From a virus: a stretch of DNA of 64,000 nt. A program made the position numbers and the translations under genes. The stretch spans positions 1-64,000 of the IMG/VR virus record IMGVR_UViG_3300020463_000019; one strand, given 5' to 3'. Position 1 is the first letter of the stretch, and every line of letters begins with the position of its first letter. A model generated the notes under the pieces. It was not told where the DNA came from, ran no database searches, and worked only from the letters and a program-made list of their open reading frames with translations. This document shows positions 42,664 to 58,655 of the stretch, one piece after another.

Positions 42664-43361
42664 ATTATGCCTTTGATGTAGATGGAACTCTAGGCGAAGC
42701 AAGACAAATTATGGACCCAGACTTTAAGCGTTGGTTCATGCAATGGATGCGTGGTAAGAACGTTTACTTAGTTACTGGCAGCGATCGTGCCAAAACAGTT
42801 GAACAAATTGGCCAAGACCTTGTTGATAGATGTACAATGTCATTTCAATGTGCAGGTAATAGTGTATGGCAAAACGGTGTAGAAGTTTCTAGCACAAAAC
42901 TCAATGTGCCGCCAGAGATGATTCACTTTCTGGAAGAAAAGGTTGCCGCTACTAGTTACCCGGATCTCTATGGAAATCATATTGAAATCCGTCCTGGGCT
43001 AATCAACTTTAGTATTGTTGGCCGAAACGCTGTCGGTAACCAGAGAGATGATTATTATACTTGGGATCAAAAACACAAAGAGCGTGAGCAGATAGCCGAA
43101 GAGTTTAATAATAGATTTATAGGCTTTGAAGCCGAAGTAGGTGGAAATACAAGTTTGGACATACACTTAAAAGGACGTAACAAAGCACAAGTATATGATG
43201 TTATAGGTGCACCGTTGGTGTTCTTTGGCGATAGAATATTTCCCGGAGGCAATGACTATCCATTGCATTGTAGAATGATTGGTCCACAAGATAAAAGTCA
43301 TCCAGTAACAAGTGCAAGTGAAACTTGGAACTTATTAAAAGAATACTACAACCATGTCTGA
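42660..43361 (+). CDS. HAD-superfamily phosphomannomutase (PMM2-like)
   Basis: A 233-residue HAD enzyme resembling eukaryotic-type phosphomannomutase (about 245 residues). The nucleophile motif FDVDGTLGEARQ lines up with the PMM2 opening, VTGSDRAKTVEQIGQDLVD with motif II, RPGLINFSIVGR with the substrate-binding arginines of the cap, GGNTSLDIHLKG with the cap-to-core return, and FFGDRIFPGGNDYPL with motif IV. It should move phosphate between C6 and C1 of a hexose, supplying the nucleotidyltransferase. The overlap with the RuBisCO-like gene suggests a joint pathway. A simple phosphatase is the alternative. Confidence 0.75.
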   Translation: MNYAFDVDGTLGEARQIMDPDFKRWFMQWMRGKNVYLVTGSDRAKTVEQIGQDLVDRCTMSFQCAGNSVWQNGVEVSSTKLNVPPEMIHFLEEKVAATSYPDLYGNHIEIRPGLINFSIVGRNAVGNQRDDYYTWDQKHKEREQIAEEFNNRFIGFEAEVGGNTSLDIHLKGRNKAQVYDVIGAPLVFFGDRIFPGGNDYPLHCRMIGPQDKSHPVTSASETWNLLKEYYNHV

Positions 43362-44709
43362 GGGCATTGATCCACATGAGATGAAAGCCAAACTCAACAG
43401 GATTGGATCCGGATTCTGCCTAGCAAAGTGGACACAACTTACACTAAATTTACAGAATGGTACTGCACACAGTTGCCATCATCCTCCTGTACACAAGATA
43501 CCTGCAGAAGAATTAAAAGATAATCCAAGCGCCTTACATAATACTAAACACAAAAAAGAACGCAGGAAACAAATGCTCAACGGTGAACGACCAAGCGAGT
43601 GTGACTTTTGTTGGCGAATAGAAGATGCTGACAAAAATGCACTAAGTGATAGGCATTATAAGTCGGCTTTTAGTTGGAGTGCAGACCAGTTTGATCGTAT
43701 AGCATACAGCGATTCAACAGTAGACTATCAACCCTCTTATGTGGAAGTAAGTTTTTCACATGCGTGTAACTTTAAGTGTATGTATTGTTCGCCAAGTATA
43801 AGCACAAGTTGGATGAAAGAAGTAAAACAACATGGTGCCTTCCCTACTACTGATCGTTATAATAACATAGAGTGGATAGAGCAAACTGGAAAGATGCCGA
43901 TACCAACTCGTGAGTACAATCCTTATGTAGAAGCATTTTGGAAGTGGTGGCCTAGCCTATACAAAAGTTTACATACGTTTCGTATTACTGGAGGTGAGCC
44001 ATTGATGAGTAAGGACACGTTCCGTGTTATGGAATGGATACTAGAAACAGCCTCGCCAAATAAAAATCTGTTGTTAGGTATCAATAGTAACTTTGTTGTT
44101 GAACCAAAACTGTTTGAACGTTTTATTAATCTTACACAACAAATGCTTGACAGTAAACGTGTAAGAAAGTTTGAAATTTATACTAGTGCTGAAGCAAGTG
44201 GAGTTCGTGCAGAGTATATTAGATCCGGACTTGACTATCAAAAATTTTTAAGTAACATACATCGTGTGTGCAATTTATTTGGAGCAAGAGAAGATTTTAC
44301 ACTTACTTTCATGTGTACATACAATGCACTAAGTCTAAGTACGTTTACTGAATGGCTAAAAGATTTAGTTGAAGTTCGTAAGCGTTATGGTCTGTATAGC
44401 ATTTATATTGATGTTAGTTATGTACGTTATCCGGACATGATGGATATTAAGATACTTCCTGAATCATTTGAAAAGTATATACATGAGTCTATTGCTTATA
44501 TGGAAGAACAAGAGGCAAACGGATTAATGCACAAAAGCGAAACTGCAAAGTTAAAGCGTATTGTTTCCTATTGGAAAAGTACAAGAACAGTTAATCAGGA
44601 TACTCATCAAAGAAACTTTAAAGCATATACTGCGGAACTTGATAAGCGACGCAATACTTTGTTCTCAGATGTTTTTCCGGAATATAGTGCATGGTATGAC
44701 ACAATTTAA
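43354..44709 (+). CDS. Radical SAM enzyme with N-terminal Cys module, copy 1
   Basis: A 451-residue enzyme. The iron-sulfur motif SHACNFKCMYCSPS (CxxxCxxC, near residues 135-142) is followed by FRITGGEPLM, the GGE motif that helps bind S-adenosylmethionine. Before the barrel is a module of about 90 residues with paired cysteines (SCHHPP and CDFCWRIEDADKNALSDRHY), the arrangement also seen in the three enzymes at 54461, 55888 and 57228. It lies about 8 kb before the main array and overlaps the PMM2-like gene by eight bases. Substrate is unknown. Confidence 0.85.
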   Translation: MSEGIDPHEMKAKLNRIGSGFCLAKWTQLTLNLQNGTAHSCHHPPVHKIPAEELKDNPSALHNTKHKKERRKQMLNGERPSECDFCWRIEDADKNALSDRHYKSAFSWSADQFDRIAYSDSTVDYQPSYVEVSFSHACNFKCMYCSPSISTSWMKEVKQHGAFPTTDRYNNIEWIEQTGKMPIPTREYNPYVEAFWKWWPSLYKSLHTFRITGGEPLMSKDTFRVMEWILETASPNKNLLLGINSNFVVEPKLFERFINLTQQMLDSKRVRKFEIYTSAEASGVRAEYIRSGLDYQKFLSNIHRVCNLFGAREDFTLTFMCTYNALSLSTFTEWLKDLVEVRKRYGLYSIYIDVSYVRYPDMMDIKILPESFEKYIHESIAYMEEQEANGLMHKSETAKLKRIVSYWKSTRTVNQDTHQRNFKAYTAELDKRRNTLFSDVFPEYSAWYDTI

Positions 44710-45886
44710 TCAAATTTATATAAATAACATTGTAGATGGTTTAAACGATATGGTTATAGATGCAACGTCTATAACGCCAGCAGTATCAGCTACTGGAACA
44801 ATTTCTATCAAACAAACCTTAAAAAGTCTACTTAAAAATCAAGATAATCCCTATTTTATTTTAAATGGGCCATGCGAATGGTTTGAGTCTTGGTCGGATT
44901 CTAGGATTAACTTCTCAGGCCAAACAGTTGATTTCTTCTTATATGAAGTTTTGCATGTTTGGAATAACAACAAAAGATGGGATTGCCCGGAAGGTGTTAT
45001 AAATGAAGATTGTGTTATCAACGAGTTTGAAATGGTCGATCGTTGGTGCAAAAAACATAATTGTTCATATAGGATATTTGTTAACGAATTTAACATGCTC
45101 CAATCACTCCAAAATACAAAATACGCTAACCGGGCAATCCAACACTTAGATACTTTTAGTCTAGCATATTATACAAACATTAAAGATGCTGACACAACAA
45201 ATCTAAAACATAATATTTCATATAAACTAAATTGCTTTACATATCGATGGGATCAGATTCGAATGTTAGCATCAGCATGGCTTACAGGAAGAAATGATTG
45301 TATAGTCACACACTATCACAAAACTGCCGGGGTTAAATACAAGTGGCCAATTAAGGATAGCATACATTGGCAAAAATTAATTAACAAAAGAAACTTACTA
45401 CAATGTATTGGTCCTCTTGCCCTTGAGAAACATTTAACAGAAAAGTTTGACCCAGCAGAGCATGTGTTGCCAGTTACAAAAGAACACTTAACTACAGACT
45501 CAATTGAGGACTACTACCTTAAAAGTTTTGCTAGTTTAGTATGTGAAACAAACTACGAATATCCATGGGGACAACTAAGCGAAAAAACTATTAACGCTAT
45601 ACGATTTGAAAATGCATTCATATTACTTGCAGGGCCTGGTAGTTTGGAACAAGCAAAGTCCTGGGGCTTTAAAACTTTTAACCAATGGTGGGATGAAAGT
45701 TATGATACAATAATCAATCCATGTCAGCGTATGGACGCAGTATTAAACATAGTTGATACTATTTTGAATTATACATATGACGAGCTCCAAGAAATTAAAA
45801 AGCAAATGGCTCCTACACTTTTACATAATAGAAATATAATTCGCACAGGTGAGTTAAGACAAAACATAATGAAGGAAATAATATGA
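44696..45886 (+). CDS. Putative transferase with DESYD-type C-terminal motif
   Basis: A 396-residue protein. The ATG at 44696 overlaps the previous stop by 14 bases; a longer reading from 44561 would overlap by 149 and is unlikely. No motif was seen in the first 280 residues. Near residue 300 are QLSEKTINAIRFENAFILLA, GPGSLEQAKSWGFKTFNQWW and DESYD, a set found in uncharacterised glycosyltransferase-like proteins of phages and capsule clusters. It has several conserved-looking cysteines (GPCEWF, CPEG, CVIN). Sugar transfer is the leading guess, with no direct evidence. Confidence 0.5.
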   Translation: MTQFNQIYINNIVDGLNDMVIDATSITPAVSATGTISIKQTLKSLLKNQDNPYFILNGPCEWFESWSDSRINFSGQTVDFFLYEVLHVWNNNKRWDCPEGVINEDCVINEFEMVDRWCKKHNCSYRIFVNEFNMLQSLQNTKYANRAIQHLDTFSLAYYTNIKDADTTNLKHNISYKLNCFTYRWDQIRMLASAWLTGRNDCIVTHYHKTAGVKYKWPIKDSIHWQKLINKRNLLQCIGPLALEKHLTEKFDPAEHVLPVTKEHLTTDSIEDYYLKSFASLVCETNYEYPWGQLSEKTINAIRFENAFILLAGPGSLEQAKSWGFKTFNQWWDESYDTIINPCQRMDAVLNIVDTILNYTYDELQEIKKQMAPTLLHNRNIIRTGELRQNIMKEII

Positions 45887-47028
45887 ATATTGGATGGCTT
45901 GGATTAGGCAAGTTAGGTATGCCTTGTGCAGAAGTTATAGCAGACAAAGGGCATAGTGTATTTGGATATGATGTAGAACCAGTAAAGAGTAAAAAGGTTA
46001 CAGTCGTAGATCATCCTAGTAGAGCAGTACGTGATATGGATTTTGTTTTTGTTGCAGTACAAACTCCACATGATCCACTATACGGTGGAGAACAACCAAT
46101 TACACATTTACCAAACAAAGACTTTGGACTCGACAGTGTTAAAGAAGTATTAAGTACTATTGATGCATATGCAACAAAAGATACTATTGTTGTATTGATT
46201 AGTACAGTATTACCTGGCACTACTAGGCGTGAGTTTGCAAATTTAATTACCAAAGGTAGACTGATTTACAATCCATACTTAATTGCAATGGGTACAGTAG
46301 AATGGGATATGGTTAATCCAGATATGGTTATTGTTGGTGGTGAAAAGCCTAATGATACTGATGCTAAAAAATTAATAAAATTTTATAAAACTATAATGGA
46401 AAATGATCCACACTATAACATTGGTACTTGGGAAGAAGGTGAAGCAACAAAAATATTCTACAATACATTTATCAGTGCAAGACTTAGTTTGGTTAATATG
46501 ATACAAGACGTTGCACAACGTACAGGTAATATGAATGTTGATGTAGTAACAAACAGTTTATCAAATGCAGGCAAACGTATTACAAGTGCCGCATATATGA
46601 AAGCAGGAATGGGTGATGGTGGCCCATGTCATCCTAGAGATAATATAGCATTAAGATGGTTAGCAGATAGATTAGATTTAGGATATAATTTATTTGATGC
46701 TATTGCACATAGTAGAGAAGTACAAGCAAAGCACTTGGCTACAGAACTATTAAAGCATAGTCCTCGTATTGCATTAACAAGTACAAGTTACAAAGATAGT
46801 GTAGAAATTGAAACAGGAAGTTATGCACTATTAGTTGCACATTATGTAAAAGAACAAGGTGGACTGATTGTTGATATTGATAATATGGCAGGAGTCATAC
46901 TTCGCGTACATGAAAAAGATAAATTCAAAACAAAAGACTTTGACATTGTAGTAGATCCATGGCGTACATATAAATCAACAAACCCAACAGTAAAGGTTAT
47001 ACACTATGGTAATACTAGACAAGTATGA
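45883..47028 (+). CDS. UDP-sugar 6-dehydrogenase family protein
   Basis: A 381-residue member of the UDP-glucose/GDP-mannose dehydrogenase family, which oxidises the C6 hydroxyl of an NDP-sugar to a carboxylate in two NAD-dependent steps. The N terminus has GWLGLGKLGMP (NAD site); VVLISTVLPGTTRREF fits the conserved STVxPGT segment, and GMGDGGPCHPRDN holds the catalytic Cys near residue 249 (family pattern GGxCFPKD). It is shorter than typical enzymes (about 430 residues), mainly at the C-terminal nucleotide domain. The ATGA overlap ties it to the putative transferase upstream. Confidence 0.85.
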   Translation: MNIGWLGLGKLGMPCAEVIADKGHSVFGYDVEPVKSKKVTVVDHPSRAVRDMDFVFVAVQTPHDPLYGGEQPITHLPNKDFGLDSVKEVLSTIDAYATKDTIVVLISTVLPGTTRREFANLITKGRLIYNPYLIAMGTVEWDMVNPDMVIVGGEKPNDTDAKKLIKFYKTIMENDPHYNIGTWEEGEATKIFYNTFISARLSLVNMIQDVAQRTGNMNVDVVTNSLSNAGKRITSAAYMKAGMGDGGPCHPRDNIALRWLADRLDLGYNLFDAIAHSREVQAKHLATELLKHSPRIALTSTSYKDSVEIETGSYALLVAHYVKEQGGLIVDIDNMAGVILRVHEKDKFKTKDFDIVVDPWRTYKSTNPTVKVIHYGNTRQV

Positions 47029-47524
47029 GTACGAACCATTAACATTCACACCCACCTGGGATGATGAATTTAAAAAATTTCCTTACAAGAGACAACCGTT
47101 TGGTGATTTTGATCAGTTAGCAAAATGGCATAGATTAGGATTTACACATAAAAACTTTACAGGTGAAATGTGTCCTGATCAAAGTATTACACCAGAATGG
47201 GCAAAAAATATTGGTAAGGTTCTTGCCTGGAAGGATTGTGGTTATACTTTCTATCGTATGCAAGTTGGTGATATACTTCCGCCACATGCAGATCATTTTA
47301 ACAAGTACAAGGAACTATTTCATATTGCAGACAGTGAAGATGTAATGCGTTGTATAGTTTTCTTGGAGGATAAAAAACCAGGACACATGAGTGAGTTTCA
47401 AGGACTAGGCGTAGGTGATTGGCACCGAGGAGATGCAATTGCTTGGAGAGGAACTGTAGAACACAGTGCATTGAATATAGGATATGAACCAAGATACACA
47501 TTACAAATTACTGGACATGCTTGA
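47006..47524 (+). CDS. Fe(II)/2-oxoglutarate-dependent oxygenase-like protein
   Basis: A 172-residue double-stranded beta-helix protein. DILPPHADHFNKY supplies the HxD pair, and VEHSALNIGYEPRYTLQI supplies the distal His and the Arg that would bind 2-oxoglutarate. DWHRGDAIAWRG is the usual turn before the second His. This is the layout of small asparaginyl/aspartyl-hydroxylase-type oxygenases common in phages. It overlaps its neighbours by 23 and 8 bases. It could hydroxylate a sugar, an amino acid side chain or a peptide. Confidence 0.7.
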   Translation: MVILDKYEYEPLTFTPTWDDEFKKFPYKRQPFGDFDQLAKWHRLGFTHKNFTGEMCPDQSITPEWAKNIGKVLAWKDCGYTFYRMQVGDILPPHADHFNKYKELFHIADSEDVMRCIVFLEDKKPGHMSEFQGLGVGDWHRGDAIAWRGTVEHSALNIGYEPRYTLQITGHA

Positions 47525-48215
47525 GTATGATGAACTTGATATATTAAAACGCATGGGTTATACATGGAATGACCCGTACGATATTATATACAAGTTTGAA
47601 GATGCATTGTCTGAATATACTAAAGCACCTTATGTTGTGACAACAGATTGTTGTACACATGCAATGGAGTTATGTTTTCGTTGGCTGGCTTATAATAATC
47701 AAATGCCAGCACAGGTAACAATACCTGAACATACATATCTTAGTGTTCCAATGATGTTAGCCAAACTTGATATTAAATTTAATTTTACACAAAATAATTG
47801 GTTAGGCGAATATCAATTAAGTGGTAGTCCTATATGGGATAGTGCAAGGTTATTAGCAGAAGGTATGTATAAACTACCTGGCTACTATCAATGTTTAAGT
47901 TTTGGAATAGGAAAACCATTGACAATTGGTCGCGGAGGTGCTATACTATTAGATAGTAAAGAAGCCTATGAATGGCTTAGTCGTGCAAGAAGCGACGGTA
48001 GAGATTTAAAAATAAAACCATGGAACAATCAAACATTTGATTTCATTGGTTATCATTATAATATGACAGTAGAACAAGCCGCAAAAGGTTTAATCATGTT
48101 GGATACATATGAAACTAACTTTGACTTCTTTGAAGACCCAATGTTACTATATCCAAATTTAAGTGAATGCGTAGGTGAAATAAATGATCATACAGACACA
48201 CAACGAATGGGATAA
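47517..48215 (+). CDS. DegT/DnrJ/EryC1-type aminotransferase, short
   Basis: A 232-residue PLP enzyme candidate for adding an amino group to a keto sugar. TTDCCTHAMELCFRWL resembles the SCT-HALEL phosphate-binding segment, IPEHTYLSVPMM the PxxTF segment, Asp108 in WDSARLLAEG contacts the PLP ring, and Lys133 in SFGIGKPLTIGRGGAIL is the Schiff-base lysine. GYHYNMTVEQAAKGLIMLD fits the GxNxRM-EQAA helix. Usual length is about 370 residues, so the C-terminal domain is largely missing. ATG at 47517 was chosen; 47484 would add 11 residues and a longer overlap. Confidence 0.75.
   Translation: MLEYDELDILKRMGYTWNDPYDIIYKFEDALSEYTKAPYVVTTDCCTHAMELCFRWLAYNNQMPAQVTIPEHTYLSVPMMLAKLDIKFNFTQNNWLGEYQLSGSPIWDSARLLAEGMYKLPGYYQCLSFGIGKPLTIGRGGAILLDSKEAYEWLSRARSDGRDLKIKPWNNQTFDFIGYHYNMTVEQAAKGLIMLDTYETNFDFFEDPMLLYPNLSECVGEINDHTDTQRMG
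47919..47947 (+). promoter_or_regulatory. Possible internal sigma70 promoter
   Basis: TTGACA and TATACT are separated by 17 bases inside the aminotransferase gene. If active it would drive the amidinotransferase and carbamoyltransferase genes, beginning about 235 bases downstream. It overlaps coding sequence for the PLP lysine region, so a chance match is quite possible. Confidence 0.3.
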
Positions 48216-49191
48216 ACTAAACAGTATCGTATTAGGAGATGTTGCAGGAGCAAGGTTTCCAAAATATGATGATGTGTTTACTCGAGTAGCCAAAGGAAGT
48301 TCTTGGACTGAAACTGCACAACCTGTAGGTCCTATTAGCCAAGTAGTTATAGAAGAAACTAAAGTAGAATTAGACTTTATGAAACAAACACTTGAACAAG
48401 CAGGTGTTACTGTATACCGTCCAAGGCAATTAGACTTTCAGCAAGTTGTGCATGGTTATAGATACTTCAGTGATGGTATGTATAATTATTGTCCACGAGA
48501 TGTAATATTAATTATAGGCAACTATGTAATTGAAACTCCTTGCTTATTTCATAGTAGACAACATGAAGGTGAAGCATACCGAGATATACGCTACAGTGGA
48601 TTAGAACAAGGTTGTAAATGGATCAGTGCTCCTCAGCATAACTTACCTGCTCATGAAGTATTTGATGCTGATGGTAACCTAACTGAAAAGACCCCAATCT
48701 TTGATGCGGCTAATGTAATGCGTTTTGGAAAAGATATATTATATTTAAAAAGTCAAACAGGGAATGCCGCTGGTGCTAGATGGCTTAGTACAGTACTAGG
48801 ATCTGAATATACTGTACATGTATGGGATAAAGTATATGCATACGCACATATTGACAGTACTATTTCCGCACTCAATGAAGAAACTATTTTACTTAACAAA
48901 CCAAGAATTAAAACTGCTGGGCAACTTCCTAAGTTTCTTAGACAGAAAAAGAAAATATGGCTGAGCGAAATTGAGCATACTGACTTCCATGTTTATCCTT
49001 ATGCAAGTAAATGGATTGGAATGAATGTGCTTAGTATTAATCCAACTACTGTGATGGTAGATCCAAGACAAACATCATTAATCAAAAGATTAGAAAAAGA
49101 AAAGTTTGATATTGCACCAGTGCAACTAACACATAGTAGAACACTTGGTGGTGGACATCATTGTTGTACATTAGACTTACACAGAGGATAA
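48184..49191 (+). CDS. Amidinotransferase (glycine/inosamine amidinotransferase family)
   Basis: A 335-residue enzyme expected to move an amidino group, typically from arginine, to an amine. The triad-type positions are visible: FDAANVMRFGKDILYLKSQ with Asp174, AHIDSTISALN with His222, and TLGGGHHCCTLDLHR with Cys327, matching the GGGFHCWT active-site turn of the family. Length is slightly below human AGAT (about 385). In bacteria the family includes StrB1, which makes the guanidino groups of streptomycin. It overlaps the aminotransferase gene by 32 bases, so the amine it acts on may be made by its neighbour. Confidence 0.85.
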   Translation: MIIQTHNEWDKLNSIVLGDVAGARFPKYDDVFTRVAKGSSWTETAQPVGPISQVVIEETKVELDFMKQTLEQAGVTVYRPRQLDFQQVVHGYRYFSDGMYNYCPRDVILIIGNYVIETPCLFHSRQHEGEAYRDIRYSGLEQGCKWISAPQHNLPAHEVFDADGNLTEKTPIFDAANVMRFGKDILYLKSQTGNAAGARWLSTVLGSEYTVHVWDKVYAYAHIDSTISALNEETILLNKPRIKTAGQLPKFLRQKKKIWLSEIEHTDFHVYPYASKWIGMNVLSINPTTVMVDPRQTSLIKRLEKEKFDIAPVQLTHSRTLGGGHHCCTLDLHRG

Positions 49192-49192
49192 T

Positions 49193-50704
49193 ATGAGAGT
49201 ACTAGGAGTAAGTGCAGGCTTTCATGATGCAGGATTATCAGTTATTGCTGATGGCGAAATACTATTTGCAGGACATAGTGAAAGATATAGCAAACAAAAA
49301 CACGATCATCATTTATGTCCAGAAATTGTTACAAAGGCATTGGACTCTGTGTTTCCGTCTGAGATTGATGCTATTGCTTATTACGAAACACCATGGCTTA
49401 AAAAGACAAGAGAAATATATGCAGGGCAAGGCATTGAAGGCGGTGATAGAAGTAGCACATGGACTACTAAGGGTGCATTGAAAAAAGAGTTTGGAGACTT
49501 GTTACCTAACGCACCAGTGCATACATACCGGCATCATCATACACATGCCGCCGCTGGCTTTCAAACAAGTCCTTTCAAAGACGCAACAGTTGTTGTCATT
49601 GACGCTATAGGTGAATGGGAAACTATTACAATATGGTACGCATACTATGATAACAAAGGTCGTGCGTGTTATGAAAAGTTGTGGCGACAACGTTATCCAC
49701 ATAGTATTGGATTGTATTATAGTGCAATGACCGCACGACTTGGATTACGTCCACTTGATGAAGAATATATTATGATGGGTATGGCTGGTTGGGGTACTGC
49801 TAGTGGTTTAAATGAAAACTTGATTGAAAGTGAATTTGTACATGATATGGCAACACTACGTTTCAAACAAAATTTACACGCTGGCATTGACAAAAACTTT
49901 ATGATCAATATGAATGAATATGATATTGCCGCTAGAGCTCAGTATAGTGTTGAAAAAATGATAGACAATGTAATGTCAAGAGCAAGAGGCTTTAATAAAA
50001 GTCGTAACCTAGTTTATATGGGAGGAGTTGCACTTAACTGTTTATACAATCGCAAACTAGGAGACTTCTTTGACGATATATGGATTATGCCAAACCCTGG
50101 AGATTGTGGAAGTAGTTTAGGTGCCGCGGCACTTACATATGGCAAAAAAATTGAATGGGATAATCCTTACTTAGGAACATTCATATATGGACCTTATCCT
50201 ATCAGAGACTTGATAGATGAACTACAAACAAATAAAATTGTAGGAGTAGCAAACGGAAGAGCAGAGTTTGGACCAAGAGCGTTAGGCAATAGAAGTTTAC
50301 TAGCCGATCCACGGGGTCCTGAAATTAAAGATAAAGTAAACGAAATAAAACGTAGACAAAAGTTTAGACCGTTTGCTCCTATGATTCTCGAAGAGCATGT
50401 ACATGAATACTTTGACATGCCTGAGAAAACACCTACGTCGCCTTATATGCAAGTAGTTGCCAGATGTAAAAAGCCAGACGAGTTTCCTGCAATTATACAC
50501 GTTGACGGAACTAGCAGAGTACAAACAGTTGGCAAAGGTTGTTATGGCAGTGGTGTACGTTATTTACTAGAACAATGGTATGTGTTAACAGGTTGTCCTA
50601 TGTTGCTTAACACAAGTTTAAATATCAGAGGGGAGCCAATGGTTGATACAAGAGAAGATGCAGATAGATTTGAAAAAGAGTATGGAGTAAAAGTATGCAG
50701 TTAG
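49193..50704 (+). CDS. NodU/CmcH-family carbamoyltransferase
   Basis: A 503-residue enzyme that should transfer a carbamoyl group from carbamoyl phosphate to a hydroxyl. The start MRVLGVSAGFHDAGLSVI is the family's ATPase-like fold opening; AGHSERYSKQKHDHH and HHHTHAAAGF (residues 114-123) are the metal and adenylation-site motifs; VVVIDAIGEWET is a second nucleotide segment. GRAEFGPRALGNRSLLADPR and RPFAPMILEEH mark the C-terminal domain. NodU and the antibiotic enzymes CmcH and TobZ carbamoylate sugars. It begins one base after the amidinotransferase stop. Confidence 0.9.
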   Translation: MRVLGVSAGFHDAGLSVIADGEILFAGHSERYSKQKHDHHLCPEIVTKALDSVFPSEIDAIAYYETPWLKKTREIYAGQGIEGGDRSSTWTTKGALKKEFGDLLPNAPVHTYRHHHTHAAAGFQTSPFKDATVVVIDAIGEWETITIWYAYYDNKGRACYEKLWRQRYPHSIGLYYSAMTARLGLRPLDEEYIMMGMAGWGTASGLNENLIESEFVHDMATLRFKQNLHAGIDKNFMINMNEYDIAARAQYSVEKMIDNVMSRARGFNKSRNLVYMGGVALNCLYNRKLGDFFDDIWIMPNPGDCGSSLGAAALTYGKKIEWDNPYLGTFIYGPYPIRDLIDELQTNKIVGVANGRAEFGPRALGNRSLLADPRGPEIKDKVNEIKRRQKFRPFAPMILEEHVHEYFDMPEKTPTSPYMQVVARCKKPDEFPAIIHVDGTSRVQTVGKGCYGSGVRYLLEQWYVLTGCPMLLNTSLNIRGEPMVDTREDADRFEKEYGVKVCS

Positions 50705-50889: not shown

Positions 50890-51570
50890 ATGTTTGATAT
50901 TATTTTTATGAGCTACGAAGAGCCAAATGCTGAAGAGCATTGGCAAGCAGTTAAGGACAAGTACCCATGGACACAAAGAGTACATGGTGTAAAAGGTTTG
51001 GTTAATGCTCATAGAGAGTGTGCTAAACTAAGTCGTACTCAAATGTATTATCATATTGAAGCAGACAACGAACTAACTGAAGACTTCAATCCTAGTTTTA
51101 AACCTGGTGCATACGACAGAGACACAGTGCATGTATGGCGTGCTAGAAATAGTGTAAACAACTTAGTGTATGGTTACAGTGGAATCAAACTGTTTCCTAA
51201 AAAGAATGTACTAGCATTAGATCCTGATAAAGTTGTTGACTTTACAACAAGTGTTAGTGATAAATTTAAAGCAGTACAAATTGTAGGTAGTACAGTTCAC
51301 TATGATACTGACCCATACAATACTTGGAAGGCCGCATTTAGAGAGTGTGCTAAACTAAGTGCAAGGATTATTGATAGACAAAAAGACAAAGAAACAAGTG
51401 AACGTTTAAATACTTGGTGTACAGTTGGAGTAGGAGACTATGCCGACTACAGTATAGCTGGTGCAATTGATGGCTGTGATTATGGCAAATATGCTACACA
51501 AGATGATATGGTAAAGGTTAATGACTGGGAATGGCTGAGGAATAGATTTGACGAAACAACTAAAGGATAG
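50890..51570 (+). CDS. Glycosyltransferase-like protein, EPNAE family copy 2
   Basis: A 226-residue relative of the protein at 33418, sharing MSYEEPNAEEHW, TQRVHGVKGLVNAHRECA and the central NSVNNLVYGYSGIKLFPKK (the other reads NVVNSLAYGNGGLKLWPKH). YYHIEADNELTEDF supplies a candidate acidic metal site. The C-terminal basic region of copy 1 is absent. Having one copy beside the sugar-modifying enzymes and one beside the fibre-proximal transferases suggests the two gene groups serve one process. Confidence 0.6.
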   Translation: MFDIIFMSYEEPNAEEHWQAVKDKYPWTQRVHGVKGLVNAHRECAKLSRTQMYYHIEADNELTEDFNPSFKPGAYDRDTVHVWRARNSVNNLVYGYSGIKLFPKKNVLALDPDKVVDFTTSVSDKFKAVQIVGSTVHYDTDPYNTWKAAFRECAKLSARIIDRQKDKETSERLNTWCTVGVGDYADYSIAGAIDGCDYGKYATQDDMVKVNDWEWLRNRFDETTKG

Positions 51571-52255
51571 TATAATCAGCGACCAGGATATGTTTACTCG
51601 TATGAGTTTATTTACTGGCAATAGTTCATTTGACGATTTACGCAAAACAATTGATAACACAGATGCAATACTCGATGATGCATTTAGCGTAGGACAATTA
51701 AAAAGCAAACGTTGGCTTATAGATAGTTTAATAGAAAGTGGCGGGTATGAACTTGGCACTGTTTTTCTATGTGCTGGATGGTATGCTACACTTGCTAGTA
51801 TGTTGTTTAACAGTATACTTTCAATACGGTGCATTAGAAGTTTTGACATTGATCCTAATTGTGCTACTATTGCCGAAACAGTTAATAGGAGTCAAGTGTT
51901 AAATAGTTGGCAGTTCAAAGCAACAACTGCGGATATAATGAACCTGGAGTTTGACAACTACACATATAGTACACAACGAAGCGATGGTACTAGTGTAGAA
52001 CTATGTGAAAGTGCAGATACTATTATAAACACAAGTTGTGAACATATACCAAACTTCAAAGAATGGTACGATAGAATCCCGTATGATAAGTTGGTTATAT
52101 TACAAAGTAACAACTACTCTGAGTTACCTGAACATGTAAATTCAAGTAACAGTTTAGAAGAGTTTGTAGATAGTGTTCCACTAATAGACACATGGTACAA
52201 AGGTGAACTAGAGTTAAGTAAGTATACGAGGTATATGGTAATTGGAATTAGATAA
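51548..52255 (+). CDS. Methyltransferase-like protein
   Basis: A 235-residue protein with a weak class I methyltransferase pattern: LGTVFLCAGWYATLASMLF in place of the glycine-rich loop, IRSFDIDPNCATIAETVN with the acidic residue that holds SAM ribose, and ADTIINTSCEHIPNFKEWYD as motif IV. Start is uncertain: TTG at 51548 overlaps the previous stop by 23 bases, while ATG at 51590 lacks overlap but would drop 14 residues. O-methylation of a sugar would fit the operon, but no acceptor site can be read. Confidence 0.55.
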   Translation: MTKQLKDSIISDQDMFTRMSLFTGNSSFDDLRKTIDNTDAILDDAFSVGQLKSKRWLIDSLIESGGYELGTVFLCAGWYATLASMLFNSILSIRCIRSFDIDPNCATIAETVNRSQVLNSWQFKATTADIMNLEFDNYTYSTQRSDGTSVELCESADTIINTSCEHIPNFKEWYDRIPYDKLVILQSNNYSELPEHVNSSNSLEEFVDSVPLIDTWYKGELELSKYTRYMVIGIR

Positions 52256-52466
52256 ACTATCACTGCGTGAACAACAAAAAGAATGTGCTAGAGCCTTAGC
52301 ATCTATGAGTGCTACCAACAACAATATTCATCAATTCAACAAACAAGCACATCACAATAGTCACAACTGGTATTCTGCAGTCATTAACTGGTATGTAGAA
52401 CAGTATGGCGACTTACCCTCAAAGACTGGACCAGGACAAGAAGTTAAGTTAATCTTGGACAACTAA
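52242..52466 (+). CDS. Hypothetical protein, 74 residues
   Basis: Starts at TTG overlapping the preceding stop by 14 bases. The helical N terminus (LSLREQQKECARALASMSAT) leads to a His/Asn/Trp-rich middle (NNIHQFNKQAHHNSHNWYSA). No family recognised. Its last base is the first of the next ATG, so it is coupled to the radical SAM array and could be a small partner or substrate for it. Confidence 0.5.
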   Translation: MELDKLSLREQQKECARALASMSATNNNIHQFNKQAHHNSHNWYSAVINWYVEQYGDLPSKTGPGQEVKLILDN

Positions 52467-53392
52467 TGATTAATAGTATTACTACTGACGTTCCGAGCAG
52501 TTTAGATATTGAATGGGTAATCAACAATTACTGCAATTTTAATTGTAGTTATTGCACTCCTGACTTATTTGGTAACACTAGTAGAGCATTAGATTTACCT
52601 ATAGCAGTTGAGTTTTTTAACACAGTACATCAACAACATCCAGGAATAAAAATGCTAAGTCTCAGTGGAGGAGAACCTACACTGTGGAAGCATCTACCTG
52701 AGTTTGTTGATAGTGTAGCAAGTAACTACTTCTTTCATATTATTACCAACGGTAGTAGAACGCTTGACTGGTGGCGTAGATTCATGTATAAAAGAAAGAT
52801 AGACAGGATAACAATAAGTTTACATGTAGAGCAAATTAATTTTGATAAAACATTTGCCAATATAGAATTTTTACAAAACCAAACAGACTTAACTTTATTA
52901 GTATTACTAAAGCCTGGGTCAAAGGAAATACTAGAACAATTTGTAAAACGTATAACTGATGCAAAAATAAATGCAAGTATAAAAATAAAACCATTAACCT
53001 CGCATGATAATAGAAGTGTGTACAACTACAACAAAGACGAAAAATCATGGTTACAACACTTTAGTTACAACAAAGCAAACATAAATTCCTATAGTGGTAT
53101 TGCTAAAAGACTTATAGTTGATGGCAAAGAGCATAGCATGAGTTATGCTTACAAACTAGTTGCAGGTGGATTAAATAACTTTAGAGGTTGGAACTGTAAC
53201 TTAGGAAGTAGCCGAATGTTTATTTGGCACGATGGAAATGTGTTTCCTGCTACATGTAAAACTGCTATGGCAAGACCGATTGGCAATGTTTTTTCTAATA
53301 CGTTAGAAGTTAAAACATCAAGTACAAGATGTGCTGATGAGTTTTGTCATTGTGCACCTGATATTAGGATTACAAAAAGTAGAAATGTATAA
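52466..53392 (+). CDS. Radical SAM enzyme, array copy 2 (compact form)
   Basis: A 308-residue enzyme with VINNYCNFNCSYCTPDLFG (CxxxCxxC near residue 23) and KMLSLSGGEPTLWKHL (GGE). The barrel continues with FFHIITNGSRTLDWW and RITISLHVEQINFDKTF. The C-terminal 60 residues contain cysteines (WNCNLGSSRMFIWHD, FPATCKTAMARP, CADEFCHCAPD) in a SPASM-like auxiliary cluster arrangement. It lacks the long N-terminal module of the other forms. First member of the continuous array; overlaps the next gene by eight bases. Confidence 0.85.
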   Translation: MINSITTDVPSSLDIEWVINNYCNFNCSYCTPDLFGNTSRALDLPIAVEFFNTVHQQHPGIKMLSLSGGEPTLWKHLPEFVDSVASNYFFHIITNGSRTLDWWRRFMYKRKIDRITISLHVEQINFDKTFANIEFLQNQTDLTLLVLLKPGSKEILEQFVKRITDAKINASIKIKPLTSHDNRSVYNYNKDEKSWLQHFSYNKANINSYSGIAKRLIVDGKEHSMSYAYKLVAGGLNNFRGWNCNLGSSRMFIWHDGNVFPATCKTAMARPIGNVFSNTLEVKTSSTRCADEFCHCAPDIRITKSRNV

Positions 53393-54464
53393 ACTAGAAG
53401 ACATAAAGCAAATACATTTAGAAGTGACACAGAAGTGTCAGGCCGCGTGTCCTATGTGTGATCGCAATATGAATGGCAAAGGTATCAACCCGCATATTGA
53501 TTTGAGCGAACTTAGTTTAGAAGACTGCGAAAAAATGTTTCCGCCAGAGTTTATTGCACAACTAGATAGTATGTATATGTGTGGTAACTTAGGTGATCCT
53601 ATTATAGCAAAAGACTGTTTACAAATATTCCAATACTTTCGCAAACACAACAAAGACATGTGGTTGAGTATGAACACAAATGGTGGAGCACAAATACCAG
53701 CATGGTGGGCAGGACTTGCTAGTACTCTTAATCACAGAGGTGCAGTTATCTTTAGTGTTGACGGTTTAAAAGATACAAATCATATTTACAGACAAGGTGT
53801 AAGTTGGGACATAGTAGAACGTAGCATGAGAGCATTTGTAAAAGGTGGTGGTCGAGCAAGATGGGACTTCCTTATATTTGAACACAACCAACATCAAGTT
53901 GAACGAGCAAAAGCTCTTGCTATGGAGATTGGTTGCGAAAACTTTATTCCTAAGAAGACAGGAAGATTTGTTACTGCGACTACACAACCTAAAGAAGAAC
54001 ATGAAGGAAGCAATAGAAAAGGCACTGAGTCAATTGAGCTTAAGAAGCCTGACGATAAATATGTTAATAAAGCTCTTACTACTCAGCAAAAATTAATTGA
54101 AAAATACGGCGACATGGACAACTACTATGACGCAGTTCCTATTAAATGTAAAGTTGCAAGTTCAGGTAATCTTTTTATTACTGCTGAAGGCATGGCAATG
54201 CCGTGTTGTTGGACTGCTGGTCGTATGTATAAGTGGTGGCATAAAGATCCTAGAGTCGAACAGATATGGAACTTCATAGATGCACATGGAGGCAAACAAG
54301 GTTTAAGTGTAATTGAAAATGGACTACCTGCAGTATTTGACTCGGGTATATTTGACAGTATAAATGATAGTTGGAACAAAACAAGTTGTGCCGATGGCAA
54401 GTTAAAAGTATGTGCTATGAAGTGCGGTATTGAGTGGGATCCTTTTACGGAGCAATTTAAGTGA
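53385..54464 (+). CDS. Radical SAM/SPASM-like enzyme, array copy 3 (short form)
   Basis: A 359-residue enzyme. The ATG at 53385 sits inside the preceding stop region (ATGTATAA); a longer reading from 53331 adds only a hydrophobic leader and is rejected. HLEVTQKCQAACPMCDRNM carries CxxxCxxC near residue 18. The middle has MWLSMNTNGG, IFSVDGLKDTNHIYRQGVSW and RARWDFLIFEHNQHQVE, and the end has CKVASSGNLFITAEGMAMPC with CC and CAMKC as an auxiliary cluster. The proteins at 58655 and 59757 follow the same plan. Confidence 0.85.
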   Translation: MYKLEDIKQIHLEVTQKCQAACPMCDRNMNGKGINPHIDLSELSLEDCEKMFPPEFIAQLDSMYMCGNLGDPIIAKDCLQIFQYFRKHNKDMWLSMNTNGGAQIPAWWAGLASTLNHRGAVIFSVDGLKDTNHIYRQGVSWDIVERSMRAFVKGGGRARWDFLIFEHNQHQVERAKALAMEIGCENFIPKKTGRFVTATTQPKEEHEGSNRKGTESIELKKPDDKYVNKALTTQQKLIEKYGDMDNYYDAVPIKCKVASSGNLFITAEGMAMPCCWTAGRMYKWWHKDPRVEQIWNFIDAHGGKQGLSVIENGLPAVFDSGIFDSINDSWNKTSCADGKLKVCAMKCGIEWDPFTEQFK

Positions 54465-55891
54465 TAAACAAAACTGAAGACAAAGATCGTTACAATGATA
54501 TCAGCGAAACATTCTGTGCTTTGCCATGGTTACATTTAAGTAGTAGACCAGATGGCAAGATGCGTACTTGTTGTACTAGTAATGCAAGTAGTGTACAAGA
54601 TCCAGACAGTAGTAAAAAAGTAGGTGGTGGAGAAGTTGGTGTTGTAAAGAACAATGATGGCGTGCCTGCTAACTTTAATCACACAAGTTTAGAAGATGCT
54701 TGGAATAGTGACTACATGAAGAATGTACGCAAGATGATGTTGCGTGGAGAAAAGCCAGCACCTTGTCTAAAATGCTATAAGGAAGAAGAAGCAGGACATC
54801 TAAGCAAACGTAATTGGGAAACAAACTATTGGGGTAATAGATATAACTTACACAACTTAGTAGAAGAAACAGACATTACAGGAAAGATACCACCAAAGAT
54901 ACGTTACATTGATCTGCGTATGGGAAGTAAGTGTCAACTAGCATGTGTCATGTGTAGTCCACATGATAGCACAGGATGGATTAAAGAATGGAATAAAATC
55001 TATCCGCAAATAACAAATGAAAAATTAAAAAATACAAGTGCTTGGGATAACAAAGGTCGTAATGATGGTGCAAGTTATAATTGGCACAAAAACAATCCTA
55101 AGTTTTGGAGTGACTTGTACGAACAGATTCCGCACATGTATCAATTGTATTTTGCTGGTGGTGAAAGTTTAATCATTGATGAACACTATGACTTGTTAGA
55201 AGAATGTATTAAAAATGGCTACGCAAAGAACATTGAGTTGCGTTACAATAGTAATGCAGTTGAATGGCGTGATGACTTGTTTGACTTGTGGGCAGAATTT
55301 AAACGTGTGAGATTCCACTACAGTATAGACGCACATGGAGAACACAATGACTATATACGCTACCCAACAGATTGGAAACATCAAGAAGAAGTATTCTGGA
55401 AGTTGGACAATACTAGTGACAATGTAGAAGTAACAACCGCTACAACTATTATGGCACTCAACGTTGGATACATTCCAGAGTTTGTGCAATGGAAAGTAGC
55501 ACAGAACTTTCGTAAGATAAACAAATGGCCGTTAGGAGCAGGAGGTATTAACATGCATTTTGCTTACTGGCCACCTCAGTTAAATGTTAAAGTATTGCCG
55601 GCTGAAGTAAAACAAACTATAACAGACAAGTACGAACAAGAGTTCATACCTTGGATGATGGATAACTGGCAAAGTTTTACAGGAGTCAAAGAAGCAGGAC
55701 TAACACAAGAACAATGGCTAAGTGCTCCATACGGAGTAAAAAGATTTCGTGGCATTATCAAGTTTATGAATGCAGAAGACTGGACACAACGTTTACCAGA
55801 AACAAGACAGTACTTAAACCTAGTAAACAAACAACGTGGATGGGAAACAAAGTTTCTTGAAGTCTTTCCGTTGTTCAAGGAAGTGCTATGA
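54461..55891 (+). CDS. Radical SAM enzyme with N-terminal Cys module, array copy 4
   Basis: A 476-residue enzyme with a GTG start in a four-base overlap. The N-terminal module reads FCALPWLHLSSRPDGKMRTC followed by CTS, then PCLKCYKEEEAGHLSKRNWE. The barrel motif is LRMGSKCQLACVMCSPHDST (CxxxCxxC near residue 155-162), followed by LYFAGGESLIIDEHYDLLEE (GGE). RFHYSIDAHGEHNDYIRYPT is a conserved later segment shared with the proteins at 55888 and 57228. This form resembles the twitch/SPASM-related proteins found in many marine T4-like genomes. Substrate unknown. Confidence 0.85.
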   Translation: MINKTEDKDRYNDISETFCALPWLHLSSRPDGKMRTCCTSNASSVQDPDSSKKVGGGEVGVVKNNDGVPANFNHTSLEDAWNSDYMKNVRKMMLRGEKPAPCLKCYKEEEAGHLSKRNWETNYWGNRYNLHNLVEETDITGKIPPKIRYIDLRMGSKCQLACVMCSPHDSTGWIKEWNKIYPQITNEKLKNTSAWDNKGRNDGASYNWHKNNPKFWSDLYEQIPHMYQLYFAGGESLIIDEHYDLLEECIKNGYAKNIELRYNSNAVEWRDDLFDLWAEFKRVRFHYSIDAHGEHNDYIRYPTDWKHQEEVFWKLDNTSDNVEVTTATTIMALNVGYIPEFVQWKVAQNFRKINKWPLGAGGINMHFAYWPPQLNVKVLPAEVKQTITDKYEQEFIPWMMDNWQSFTGVKEAGLTQEQWLSAPYGVKRFRGIIKFMNAEDWTQRLPETRQYLNLVNKQRGWETKFLEVFPLFKEVL

Positions 55892-57231
55892 CAGAACTAA
55901 ACATGGATAGGTTTTGTGTTGTTCCTTTTGTGCAGTTAAACACAAGAGGCAAAGGTGATGCACGAGTATGTTGTAGTATCGATGGATTAAACTATGGCGT
56001 ACCAAAACATTTAACACTTGATCAAGTTAATCCAGATACATACAACGGCAAAGACACAGAAGTATATAACCTACAACATGATGATATATCAGACTTATGG
56101 AACAGTGACTTTATGCGAGACTTCCGACAAAAGATGTTGGCAGGTGAATATATACCCAACTGTGAGTTTTGTTACAGAATGGAAAACAGTGGACTTAGTA
56201 GTAAGCGACTAGGCAAGAACAAAATATTCTTAGAGCGAACACTTCCGTTCTTACAAGACTATGCAAACGCTAACGGACATGTTGACAAAATGCCACAGTG
56301 GTGGGAGATACGTTTAAGTACCAAGTGTAACCTAAGTTGTATTATGTGTGCTCCAAGTTTGAGTACTATGATGTATAAAGAATATGCAAAGTGGCGTAAG
56401 GATGGAACAGGAAGTCAATACACAAATGGAGCATTGGCTATTGCAGAAGACAGTGGCGAAGAGTTTTTAAGTAAGAGTGAGTTCTTTCGTGATCAAGTTA
56501 CAAGTAATCTGCAACATGTTTTATACATGGAGTTTAGAGGTGGTGAAGTATTTGCAGACAAAGAAAGCATAGACTTTATTGAAGCAGTAAGTTATACAGA
56601 ATATGCCGCAGGCATTACGCTAGATATCTCAACAAACGCTACACTAATTAATAAAAGAGTAGTAGACATACTTAATAGATTCAAAGGTGGTAAACTAAGA
56701 CTTAGTATTGATGCGTACAAAGAAGCAGATGAATGGATACGCTATCATACAGACTGGAATGCAGTAATTAGAAGTATGGAAATAATGCATGGCTTACACA
56801 ACAAGTGGAAGTTCCTAACACAAACAACAGTACAATTTTTAAACTGCTTAACATTAGATGAACTAGTAGTGTTCTTTAATGATTACATTATGGAACAACG
56901 AGACGAAAGATTCTTTTTAGGATTTACAAGTGTAAGAGGTAAAGACTGGTTACGACATGAGATGGTACCTAATAGTATTCGTGAACCAGCAGTACAACGC
57001 ATGAAAGAACTAAAACGCACATTACCTATATTCCAAACCAATTGGAAAAATTCAGAACAACTTAACAAAGCAATGGATCAACTTATAAGTGTATTAAGCG
57101 ATACAGAATATACAGAAGAAGCAAAAGTAGAACTTGCACCTAAAGCAAGAAACTTTTTTGAAACACTAACTAGAGTTCGAAAGAAAGATTACTTCGAACA
57201 GTTTCCACACATTAATCAGAGTATAGCATGA
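55888..57231 (+). CDS. Radical SAM enzyme with N-terminal Cys module, array copy 5
   Basis: A 447-residue paralogue. FCVVPFVQLNTRGKGDARVC and CEFCYRMENSGLSSKRLGKN form the N-terminal cysteine module. IRLSTKCNLSCIMCAPSLST carries CxxxCxxC near residue 150; the usual GGE is GGEV in MEFRGGEVFADKES. LRLSIDAYKEADEWIRYHTD corresponds to the late segment in copy 4. Overlaps both neighbours by four bases, indicating coupled translation. Confidence 0.85.
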   Translation: MTELNMDRFCVVPFVQLNTRGKGDARVCCSIDGLNYGVPKHLTLDQVNPDTYNGKDTEVYNLQHDDISDLWNSDFMRDFRQKMLAGEYIPNCEFCYRMENSGLSSKRLGKNKIFLERTLPFLQDYANANGHVDKMPQWWEIRLSTKCNLSCIMCAPSLSTMMYKEYAKWRKDGTGSQYTNGALAIAEDSGEEFLSKSEFFRDQVTSNLQHVLYMEFRGGEVFADKESIDFIEAVSYTEYAAGITLDISTNATLINKRVVDILNRFKGGKLRLSIDAYKEADEWIRYHTDWNAVIRSMEIMHGLHNKWKFLTQTTVQFLNCLTLDELVVFFNDYIMEQRDERFFLGFTSVRGKDWLRHEMVPNSIREPAVQRMKELKRTLPIFQTNWKNSEQLNKAMDQLISVLSDTEYTEEAKVELAPKARNFFETLTRVRKKDYFEQFPHINQSIA

Positions 57232-58655
57232 CTGAAGTAGATCATACCAAACACACCCGATGTCCTATACCATGGATGAGTCAAAGTTATAGAGCCAACG
57301 GAGACATTAGAGTATGTTGTCAAGCACAACATGGACCTACTGGCGGTATACTTAAATCACCAGAAGGTAAAGTATTGAATGCTCGTGACAGTGACTTAAA
57401 TGAAATACGCAACGCACCACTAGAGAAAGACATCCGAAGTTCGATGATACGTGGCGAGAAACATGTAGAGTGTACACGTTGTTGGACTGAAGAAGATGCT
57501 GGTATGACTAGTAGACGTATCATAGAAAATAAACTATGGACCAAGGGCGGTTGGGATCAACTGCGTGAAGAAGACAAGTATACCTGGGACGAGTTAATGA
57601 GTTATACACAAGAAGACGGAACCATAGATACAGATGCTATTGGCAACAACTTCTTTGATGTACGCTTTGGAAACTTGTGTAATCTAAAGTGTAGAATGTG
57701 CGGTCCAACTGACAGTAGTATGTGGTATGACGAACAAGTTAAACTATGGGGCAACACATACAAAGACAGTCACGGTACTGTTACACTTGTACCTAATGCT
57801 AAAGGCAAACATGTACCTGAAGTAAATGTTTATGACTGGCATGAAAGTAAACACTATTGGACACAAATGGAATGCATGATTCCTAATATCCGTAAGTTGT
57901 ATATTGTAGGTGGTGAACCATTTATGATTGATCAACACTATGCGTTTTTGCAAAAGTGTGTAGATGGTGGCTATGCTAAAAATATCATTGTAGAGTACAA
58001 CAGTAATGTAACAAACATTCCACAACGTGCTTGGGACATATGGAAACATTTTAAACGCATAGGCATTGGTGCTAGTATAGATGCAGTAGGAGACTTAAAC
58101 TATTACATACGTCCACCAAGTAGATTTGAAAAGATATGGAGCAACCTTAAAAAACTAAGTGCCGCTGAAGGTAACTTTAGAATGTGGTTGGCTACAACTA
58201 TTAACATATACAACGTTTGGGTACTACCAGACATTATGAAGTTCTACATTGAGAACAACATGCCTAGAGTAAATGATGATGACTTCAAACCTATTATGAC
58301 ACCACACCCATTACACGGGCCACAGTTCTTAAACATAAGAGCATTACCAAAGCCTATCAAAGATTTAATTGCTGACAAATACGAAAAGCAATTGCCACAG
58401 GTTTATGAAGTGATTGATCAACACATTCAAGATCCTAATAGAAATCATCACAGTAAAAGACAAGCAAAACTTATATTAGAAACATACAAAGACTTTATGT
58501 ATGCCAAAGACTTTTCAGATAAACTATACAAGTTCTGGGAACACACTAACAGACTAGATAAAATACGTGGACACTACTTCAAAGATTACTGTCCAGAAAT
58601 GTATGAGATGTTGTTAGAACATGCACACCCAGACTCTTGTAAGGCACCTTATTAA
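57228..58655 (+). CDS. Radical SAM enzyme with N-terminal Cys module, array copy 6
   Basis: A 475-residue paralogue. CPIPWMSQSYRANGDIRVCC and ECTRCWTEEDAGMTSRRIIE form the N-terminal module. VRFGNLCNLKCRMCGPTDSS carries CxxxCxxC near residue 150, and KLYIVGGEPFMIDQHYAFLQ carries GGE. GIGASIDAVGDLNYYIRPPS matches the late segment of copies 4 and 5. Its last base overlaps the next start (TAATG). Within the three long forms, the region between the cysteine module and barrel differs most, suggesting distinct substrates. Confidence 0.85.
   Translation: MTEVDHTKHTRCPIPWMSQSYRANGDIRVCCQAQHGPTGGILKSPEGKVLNARDSDLNEIRNAPLEKDIRSSMIRGEKHVECTRCWTEEDAGMTSRRIIENKLWTKGGWDQLREEDKYTWDELMSYTQEDGTIDTDAIGNNFFDVRFGNLCNLKCRMCGPTDSSMWYDEQVKLWGNTYKDSHGTVTLVPNAKGKHVPEVNVYDWHESKHYWTQMECMIPNIRKLYIVGGEPFMIDQHYAFLQKCVDGGYAKNIIVEYNSNVTNIPQRAWDIWKHFKRIGIGASIDAVGDLNYYIRPPSRFEKIWSNLKKLSAAEGNFRMWLATTINIYNVWVLPDIMKFYIENNMPRVNDDDFKPIMTPHPLHGPQFLNIRALPKPIKDLIADKYEKQLPQVYEVIDQHIQDPNRNHHSKRQAKLILETYKDFMYAKDFSDKLYKFWEHTNRLDKIRGHYFKDYCPEMYEMLLEHAHPDSCKAPY

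Follow-up and report, generated by a model that had tools for sequence, protein, structure and literature searches.

Sugars that bear a guanidine group are familiar from antibiotics, among them streptomycin, whose pathway includes the DegT-family aminotransferase StsC as well as the inosamine-phosphate amidinotransferase StrB1; to our knowledge, and on a limited literature search, no guanidino sugar has been described from a virus. A search of the literature for inosamine-phosphate amidinotransferase together with bacteriophage gave no match, and no report of a phage guanidino-sugar module was found, as judged mostly from titles and abstracts; one article mentions an amidinotransferase only for archaeal tRNA (PMC6884629). 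The IMG/VR record IMGVR_UViG_3300020463_000019 (66,292 bases, probably a fragment), from an aquatic, T4-like virus of bacteria, includes a five-gene module. The module occupies positions 45883-50704, on the plus strand, of the first 64,000 bases of the record, which are the stretch analysed here and are referred to as the window. It consists of genes for a nucleoside diphosphate (NDP)-sugar dehydrogenase, a 2-oxoglutarate (2OG)/Fe oxygenase-like protein, a short DegT-type aminotransferase, a StrB1-like amidinotransferase and an O-carbamoyltransferase. We consider that there is about an even chance that the first four of these genes constitute a phage-encoded unit making a guanidino-sugar. The kinds of enzymes are known; their combination in a phage and the variant of the dehydrogenase are the new parts. 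A reading of the sequence alone had placed these genes here, naming four of the enzymes and mentioning an oxygenase, and all five were found as intact plus-strand open reading frames (ORFs) with matches to the families named, that of the oxygenase falling below the cut-off.

The amidinotransferase (48184..49191, plus strand), an arginine:amine amidinotransferase of the pentein fold, aligns end to end with StrB1 (PDB 1bwd; 270.7 bits, 1.6e-79). AGAT, HsvA and SxtG score 131-142 bits against it and its Pfam match is weak (ADI, 0.0029). It shares with StrB1 the Asp, Asp, His and Cys catalytic residues: Asp174, His222, Cys327 and Asp106 correspond in the alignment to AGAT Asp254, His303, Cys407 and Asp170 (AGAT residue numbers counted by hand), and the assignment of the first three to family positions by the sequence-only reading is thereby borne out. 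Each of the four is at least 93% conserved in an alignment of 85 sequences composed of viral relatives, a few isolates and the window protein, as are Asp224, Arg241 and Ser275, which by analogy with AGAT may bind arginine. From its sequence the enzyme is predicted to take an amidino group from arginine and place it on an acceptor amine. StrB1 is likewise the best match of a relative that has about 41% identity to the window protein. Unlike StrB1 in its own setting, the phage enzyme is encoded beside an NDP-sugar dehydrogenase and a 2OG oxygenase.

The module recurs in many related viruses. Viral contigs were scanned separately with the amidinotransferase, the dehydrogenase and the short DegT protein, and their ORFs were called and labelled by profile. 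Within 6 kb on either side of 37 amidinotransferase loci, we found U441, a glycosyltransferase-like gene located immediately upstream of the module in the window, in 36 loci, the dehydrogenase and the oxygenase in 34 each, DegT in 14 and the carbamoyltransferase in 6; the 26 loci left after dereplication at 80% include U441 in 26, the oxygenase in 24 and the dehydrogenase in 23. When the comparison was started from the dehydrogenase (45 loci), the oxygenase was present in 15/15 loci with an amidinotransferase and in 0/30 without (Fisher 2.9e-12), or 8/8 versus 0/19 after dereplication at 80% (4.5e-7). Neither the carbamoyltransferase (p 1) nor U441 (p 0.1) separates the dehydrogenase loci in this manner. 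Amidinotransferase loci supplied the sequences for the oxygenase profile, whose sensitivity elsewhere may be lower as a result, yet it picked up relatives beside DegT genes with no amidinotransferase. The gene set persists across differing orders and orientations.

Since DegT is near the amidinotransferase in under half of the loci, whole records were searched for it. Fourteen amidinotransferase records of at least 140 kb, not picked through DegT, include a short DegT in 9 cases, a full-length DegT in 3 more and none in 2, and six dehydrogenase-only records of at least 137 kb, without amidinotransferase, have no DegT of any length. By Fisher's test the difference has p 7e-4 when any DegT is counted (12/14 versus 0/6) and p 0.014 when only the short form is, with small numbers and with record-size cut-offs and pooling of short and full-length DegT that were picked after the data had been seen. 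DegT was rejected as an obligate neighbour, being absent from the vicinity of 23/37 amidinotransferase loci and found elsewhere in large genomes. Because the dehydrogenase, the oxygenase and the amidinotransferase travel together, and DegT accompanies the amidinotransferase at the scale of the genome, the guanidino-sugar unit is supported. The carbamoyltransferase shows no association with the amidinotransferase (9/14 large records with it and 4/6 without, p 1) and was rejected as a member of the pathway; for the same reason we regard it as probably a separable decoration enzyme. The single pathway envisaged for all these genes therefore divides when separate distribution and loss of catalytic residues are considered: the guanidino-sugar unit coheres, and the carbamoyltransferase stands apart, as it also does in phages Bellamy and HTVC008M, where no amidinotransferase neighbours it.

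The dehydrogenase (45883..47028, plus strand) matches the N and central domains of UDPG_MGDP_dh in Pfam (2.9e-18 and 2.4e-14, respectively) and phrog_9148 (8.6e-84). It has in common with the UDP-glucose 6-dehydrogenase/GDP-mannose dehydrogenase family the Rossmann motif and the catalytic Cys, Lys, Asn, Asp and Thr, retained as Cys249, Lys190, Asn194, Asp253 and Thr108. It differs from that family, as does its subfamily, characterized by the sequences CHPRDN and YNPYLIAMG, in having no equivalents of Tyr10, Glu141 and Glu145, which in the window protein are replaced by Lys10, Tyr132 and Met136. In 77 aligned dehydrogenases, a set that consists of the window protein, two phage references and cellular loci, the five catalytic residues are invariant and the GxGxxG glycines are present in 76/76 non-gapped sequences; the Glu141 position is Phe, Tyr, Gln, Ser, Ala or Leu in 77/77, that of Glu145 is mostly Met, and that of Tyr10 is Lys in 74/76. 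The cellular loci were retrieved by the subfamily's own motifs, so this uniformity is a property of the subfamily and does not extend to the family at large. The NPEFLAEG loop of human UDP-glucose 6-dehydrogenase (UGDH) is replaced by YNPYLIAMG or a near variant in 72 dehydrogenase locus sequences, and the viral set also keeps GxGxxG and the catalytic residues, genes split by inteins apart.

In a published comparison of 229 dehydrogenases of the UDP-glucose/GDP-mannose type, Glu141 was invariant and Tyr10 was 98% conserved, and hydrolysis of the thioester was credited to Tyr10, with a mainly structural role for Glu141 (PMC4794789). The crystal structure of the human UGDH E161Q variant holds a trapped thiohemiacetal (PMC3184952). 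Formation of a uronate is doubtful because the subfamily has neither the Tyr nor the Glu that were almost or entirely invariant in that comparison; on these residues the hydrolysis step to the acid is doubtful in the window enzyme, the uronate step of the sequence-only reading is not supported as it had been worded, and the uronate-forming annotation of a large viral and cellular subfamily is open to the same doubt. A tentative and rather unlikely reading is that the subfamily releases no uronate: it would either supply an aldehyde, to be transaminated and guanidinylated at C6, or hand an acyl thioester over to an amine. Phages would then have a guanidino-sugar route not known in cells.

The signature of the subfamily (GxGKxG, YNP(Y/F)xIAMG and GxCHPRDN) is also found in cellular homologues from Pelagibacteraceae, Azospirillum and others. 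In Pelagibacteraceae loci (L143, L117, L166 and others) the dehydrogenase gene adjoins glycosyltransferase-like genes and sometimes a carbamoyltransferase gene. An apparent split intein interrupts the dehydrogenase gene exactly at the catalytic Cys in locus L028 (5102-8702, minus strand) and in locus L022 (1743-4230), with a free-standing endonuclease-like ORF of 269-296 amino acids separating the halves; the L028 gene has an apparent second intein, in frame, in the active-site helix.

The oxygenase-like gene (47006..47524, plus strand) codes for a protein resembling Asp/Arg hydroxylases, with an HxD...H...R arrangement. Its match to PF05118 (E 0.001, 19.4 bits) is under the curated cut-off of 22.6 bits, and a sequence comparison with the PDB gave no significant match. 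The putative facial triad His94, Asp96 and His153 and the 2OG-binding Arg163 are invariant in 15 aligned relatives. The DegT gene (47484..48215, plus strand; PF01041, 2.4e-15) codes for a pyridoxal phosphate (PLP) aminotransferase of the DegT/DnrJ/EryC1/StrS type of 243 amino acids, most relatives having about 195 (range 191-243 in 36 family members). Solved structures of the DegT family have about 360-390 amino acids, so the window protein is short of the full two-domain length, with the C-terminal part reduced. The sequence-only reading had overlooked this shortness, as it had the residues absent from the dehydrogenase. The position of the PLP lysine (Lys144) and the pyridine-contact Asp119 are invariant among aligned relatives, and the structure model (pLDDT 82.5) has as top matches GDP-perosamine synthase (E 5.6e-10) and WlaR aminotransferases (Z about 18). 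In many phages an unannotated gene for about 351 amino acids regularly precedes the short DegT gene, with no amidinotransferase nearby (L253 8680-9732, L260 1443-2498 and similar loci).

U441 (44696..45886, plus strand) was given a start at Met46 of the listed ORF, which begins at 44561, since homologues align from about there. It has no match in Pfam or PHROG, and comparison of its sequence with the PDB also found nothing. Its AlphaFold model (mean pLDDT 70, moderate, with low TM-scores) is matched by Foldseek to GT-B enzymes (E 8e-4), and VIA matches include the phage HY126 glycosyltransferase, T4 beta-glucosyltransferase and exostosin (Z 10.1-10.7, rmsd 4.7-5.2, 260-273 residues; Z 10.7 with rmsd 4.7 over 268 residues at best), with TarM and other GT-B enzymes within 1 Z unit of the best. 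The model is consistent with a GT-B-like fold. The gene is conserved beside the module.

A pathway can be proposed from these assignments. The NDP-sugar dehydrogenase would oxidise the hydroxymethyl group of a sugar nucleotide, perhaps halting at an aldehyde or an enzyme-bound acyl group; the DegT-type aminotransferase, whose gene is adjacent in the window but in many relatives lies at another place in the genome, would add an amine; and the StrB1-like amidinotransferase would then guanidinylate this amine with the amidino group of arginine. As the constant partner, the 2OG oxygenase may hydroxylate the sugar or an intermediate, and the GT-B-like glycosyltransferase could deposit the guanidino-sugar product, with the carbamoyltransferase and radical S-adenosylmethionine (SAM) enzymes as optional extra decorations. 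The order of the steps, the identity of the sugar, the aldehyde stage and a glycan on virion or host are inferred. If the pathway is real, it would give aquatic viruses a positively charged glycan, which could affect how they bind receptors, shield the surface of the virion or the host, or protect DNA.

Other phages share parts of this arrangement. Bellamy, a Synechococcus phage, and HTVC008M, a Pelagibacter phage, have sugar islands that encode dehydrogenases of the same subfamily (52% and 44% identity, respectively) and also hold carbamoyltransferase and glycosyltransferase or methyltransferase genes; in the 25 kb read, neither an amidinotransferase nor a short DegT is present. Instead, a NadE-like gene adjoins their dehydrogenase gene or is one gene away. 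NadE was rejected as an alternative partner, with five matches only and 0/45 viral dehydrogenase loci. In Synechococcus phage S-SCSM2R (PQ898602.1) a 2OG-Fe(II) oxygenase gene precedes an annotated inosamine amidinotransferase gene, and short DegT, radical SAM and glycosyltransferase genes are at most 3 kb from the latter; its amidinotransferase is just 33% identical to that of the window, and its dehydrogenase, 26% identical, is encoded about 35 kb away. The amidinotransferase genes of Campylobacter phages CP220 and F379 are found amid several radical SAM and sugar-transferase-like genes. An oxygenase partner was rejected for the Campylobacter phages, the 173-amino acid protein encoded before the CP220 amidinotransferase not belonging to the family of the module's oxygenase.

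Several observations weigh against a guanidino-sugar unit. The CP220 amidinotransferase is closer to HsvA and has no recognised oxygenase or dehydrogenase partner beside it, and not all phage amidinotransferases can therefore be taken to serve such a pathway. Near the core of the module Pfam recognised no streptidine-type inosose dehydrogenase or inosamine kinase, and no cyclitol oxidase was recognised in the module itself; no genome-wide search was made for distant members. DegT was undetected in 2/14 large amidinotransferase records, both below 160 kb and possibly fragments, and the short DegT mostly occurs without a nearby amidinotransferase, which is present in 4/25 DegT loci. The counts treat phage kinship by dereplication alone, and the two sets of large records may represent different types of phage. 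The substrate of the unit is itself a proposal.

Four other explanations were weighed against the guanidino-sugar unit. The dehydrogenase could form a true UDP-uronate, with DegT, the amidinotransferase and the carbamoyltransferase acting on one uronic sugar. Its conserved Cys249, Lys190, Asn194, Asp253, Thr108 and GxGxxG agree with this, the fold of the DegT protein is matched by, among others, WbpE-like aminotransferases that act in amino-uronate pathways, and the NadE-like gene near the HTVC008M and Bellamy dehydrogenases could amidate a carboxylate; replacement of Tyr10 by Lys and of Glu141 by Phe, Tyr or Gln, the thiohemiacetal trapped in the human E161Q crystal structure, and the lack of association between carbamoyltransferase and amidinotransferase all speak to the contrary, and we regard this explanation as unlikely, with an appreciable share of our confidence nonetheless. 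The idea that phage genes accumulate at a single hot spot, the glycan islands merely collecting sugar genes that share no pathway, would fit the medley of sugar and radical SAM genes, many of them, within the island and the variable presence from locus to locus of each of the carbamoyltransferase, DegT, RuBisCO-like and radical SAM genes. It is very improbable in view of the oxygenase, which follows the amidinotransferase perfectly among dehydrogenase loci as the carbamoyltransferase and U441 do not, and of the survival of the gene set in varied orders and orientations.

Carbamoyltransferases occur with oxygenases in DNA hypermodification, and a sugar destined for phage DNA, on a hypermodified base and attached by the GT-B-like protein as a DNA glycosyltransferase, would accord with this and with the presence of T4 beta-glucosyltransferase and the phage HY126 glycosyltransferase among the best fold matches of U441 (Z 10.6-10.7). 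The near tie with exostosin, TarM and other GT-B enzymes reduces that match to the GT-B fold only, the oxygenase is Asp/Arg-hydroxylase-like, and none of the module genes was recognised as coding for a base-modification enzyme. We regard this destination as quite improbable. Because the U441 fold matches tie and the island follows fibre-like genes, fibre, host surface and DNA are not told apart as the target, phage DNA being in our judgement the least supported of the three. Only a slim probability is assigned to an amidinotransferase that yields a small guanidino compound, such as guanidinoacetate or a guanidino-polyamine, or that acts with the oxygenase on amino acids rather than sugars. AGAT and HsvA are homologous at about 135-142 bits, the oxygenase resembles Asp/Arg hydroxylases, and an ocean survey reports the creatine enzyme GAMT to be enriched in viruses (PMC11360552); these points are set against a StrB1 score about twice that of AGAT and HsvA, the constant company of genes for an NDP-sugar dehydrogenase and a glycosyltransferase-like protein, and the recognition of no GAMT-like gene in the module.

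The carbamoyltransferase (49193..50704, plus strand) is of the TobZ/NodU/novobiocin type, with the YrdC-like C and the Kae1-like N domain of Carbam_trans both matched (PF16861, 3.2e-51, and PF02543, 1.2e-38), a PHROG match to phrog_1601 (2.5e-102), PDB matches to novobiocin carbamoyltransferase (1e-48) and TobZ (1e-39), and the sequence HHTHA at the family motif HHxxHA. One base separates it from the amidinotransferase gene, and overlaps of 4 to 41 bases join the consecutive genes from U441 through the amidinotransferase. Two further genes follow on the plus strand, both read by eye only. The product of 50890..51570 (226 amino acids), conserved beside the module in close relatives, appears glycosyltransferase-like and has no match in Pfam, PHROG or NCBIfam; that of 51548..52255 (235 amino acids) appears methyltransferase-like, with no Pfam match and a weak one to glycosyltransferase phrog_4447 (0.005).

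The module is set between radical SAM genes, eight in all, of which four or more are of the twitch-domain type. One, coding for a twitch-domain protein, is upstream (43354..44709, plus strand; NF033640, 3e-98), and seven are downstream (52466..60851, plus strand), where Pfam Radical_SAM is matched in 7/7, SPASM in three and NF033640 (N_Twi_rSAM) above cut-off in three. Radical SAM genes were found near 34/45 viral dehydrogenase loci.

T4-like phage features elsewhere in the window include baseplate genes and the gene for a late sigma factor. Its tail-fibre-like genes are located at 25-30 kb and are followed by the island of sugar and radical SAM genes, which spans about 31 to 61 kb. A single ORF of 4323 amino acids is located between the baseplate and fibre-like genes (12346-25317). 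The island includes a dihydroorotate dehydrogenase-like protein (37498-38205; PF01180, 8.9e-19) and a RuBisCO-like phage protein (41518-42663; PF00016, 1.6e-32), the gene for which occurs in only 2/37 amidinotransferase loci. Relatives of the latter are encoded by 171 candidate stretches of viral contigs; of the motifs, KPK and the carbamate-lysine FIKEDE are mostly kept, and the loop-6 lysine is apparently replaced (GMWGGYLSDD).

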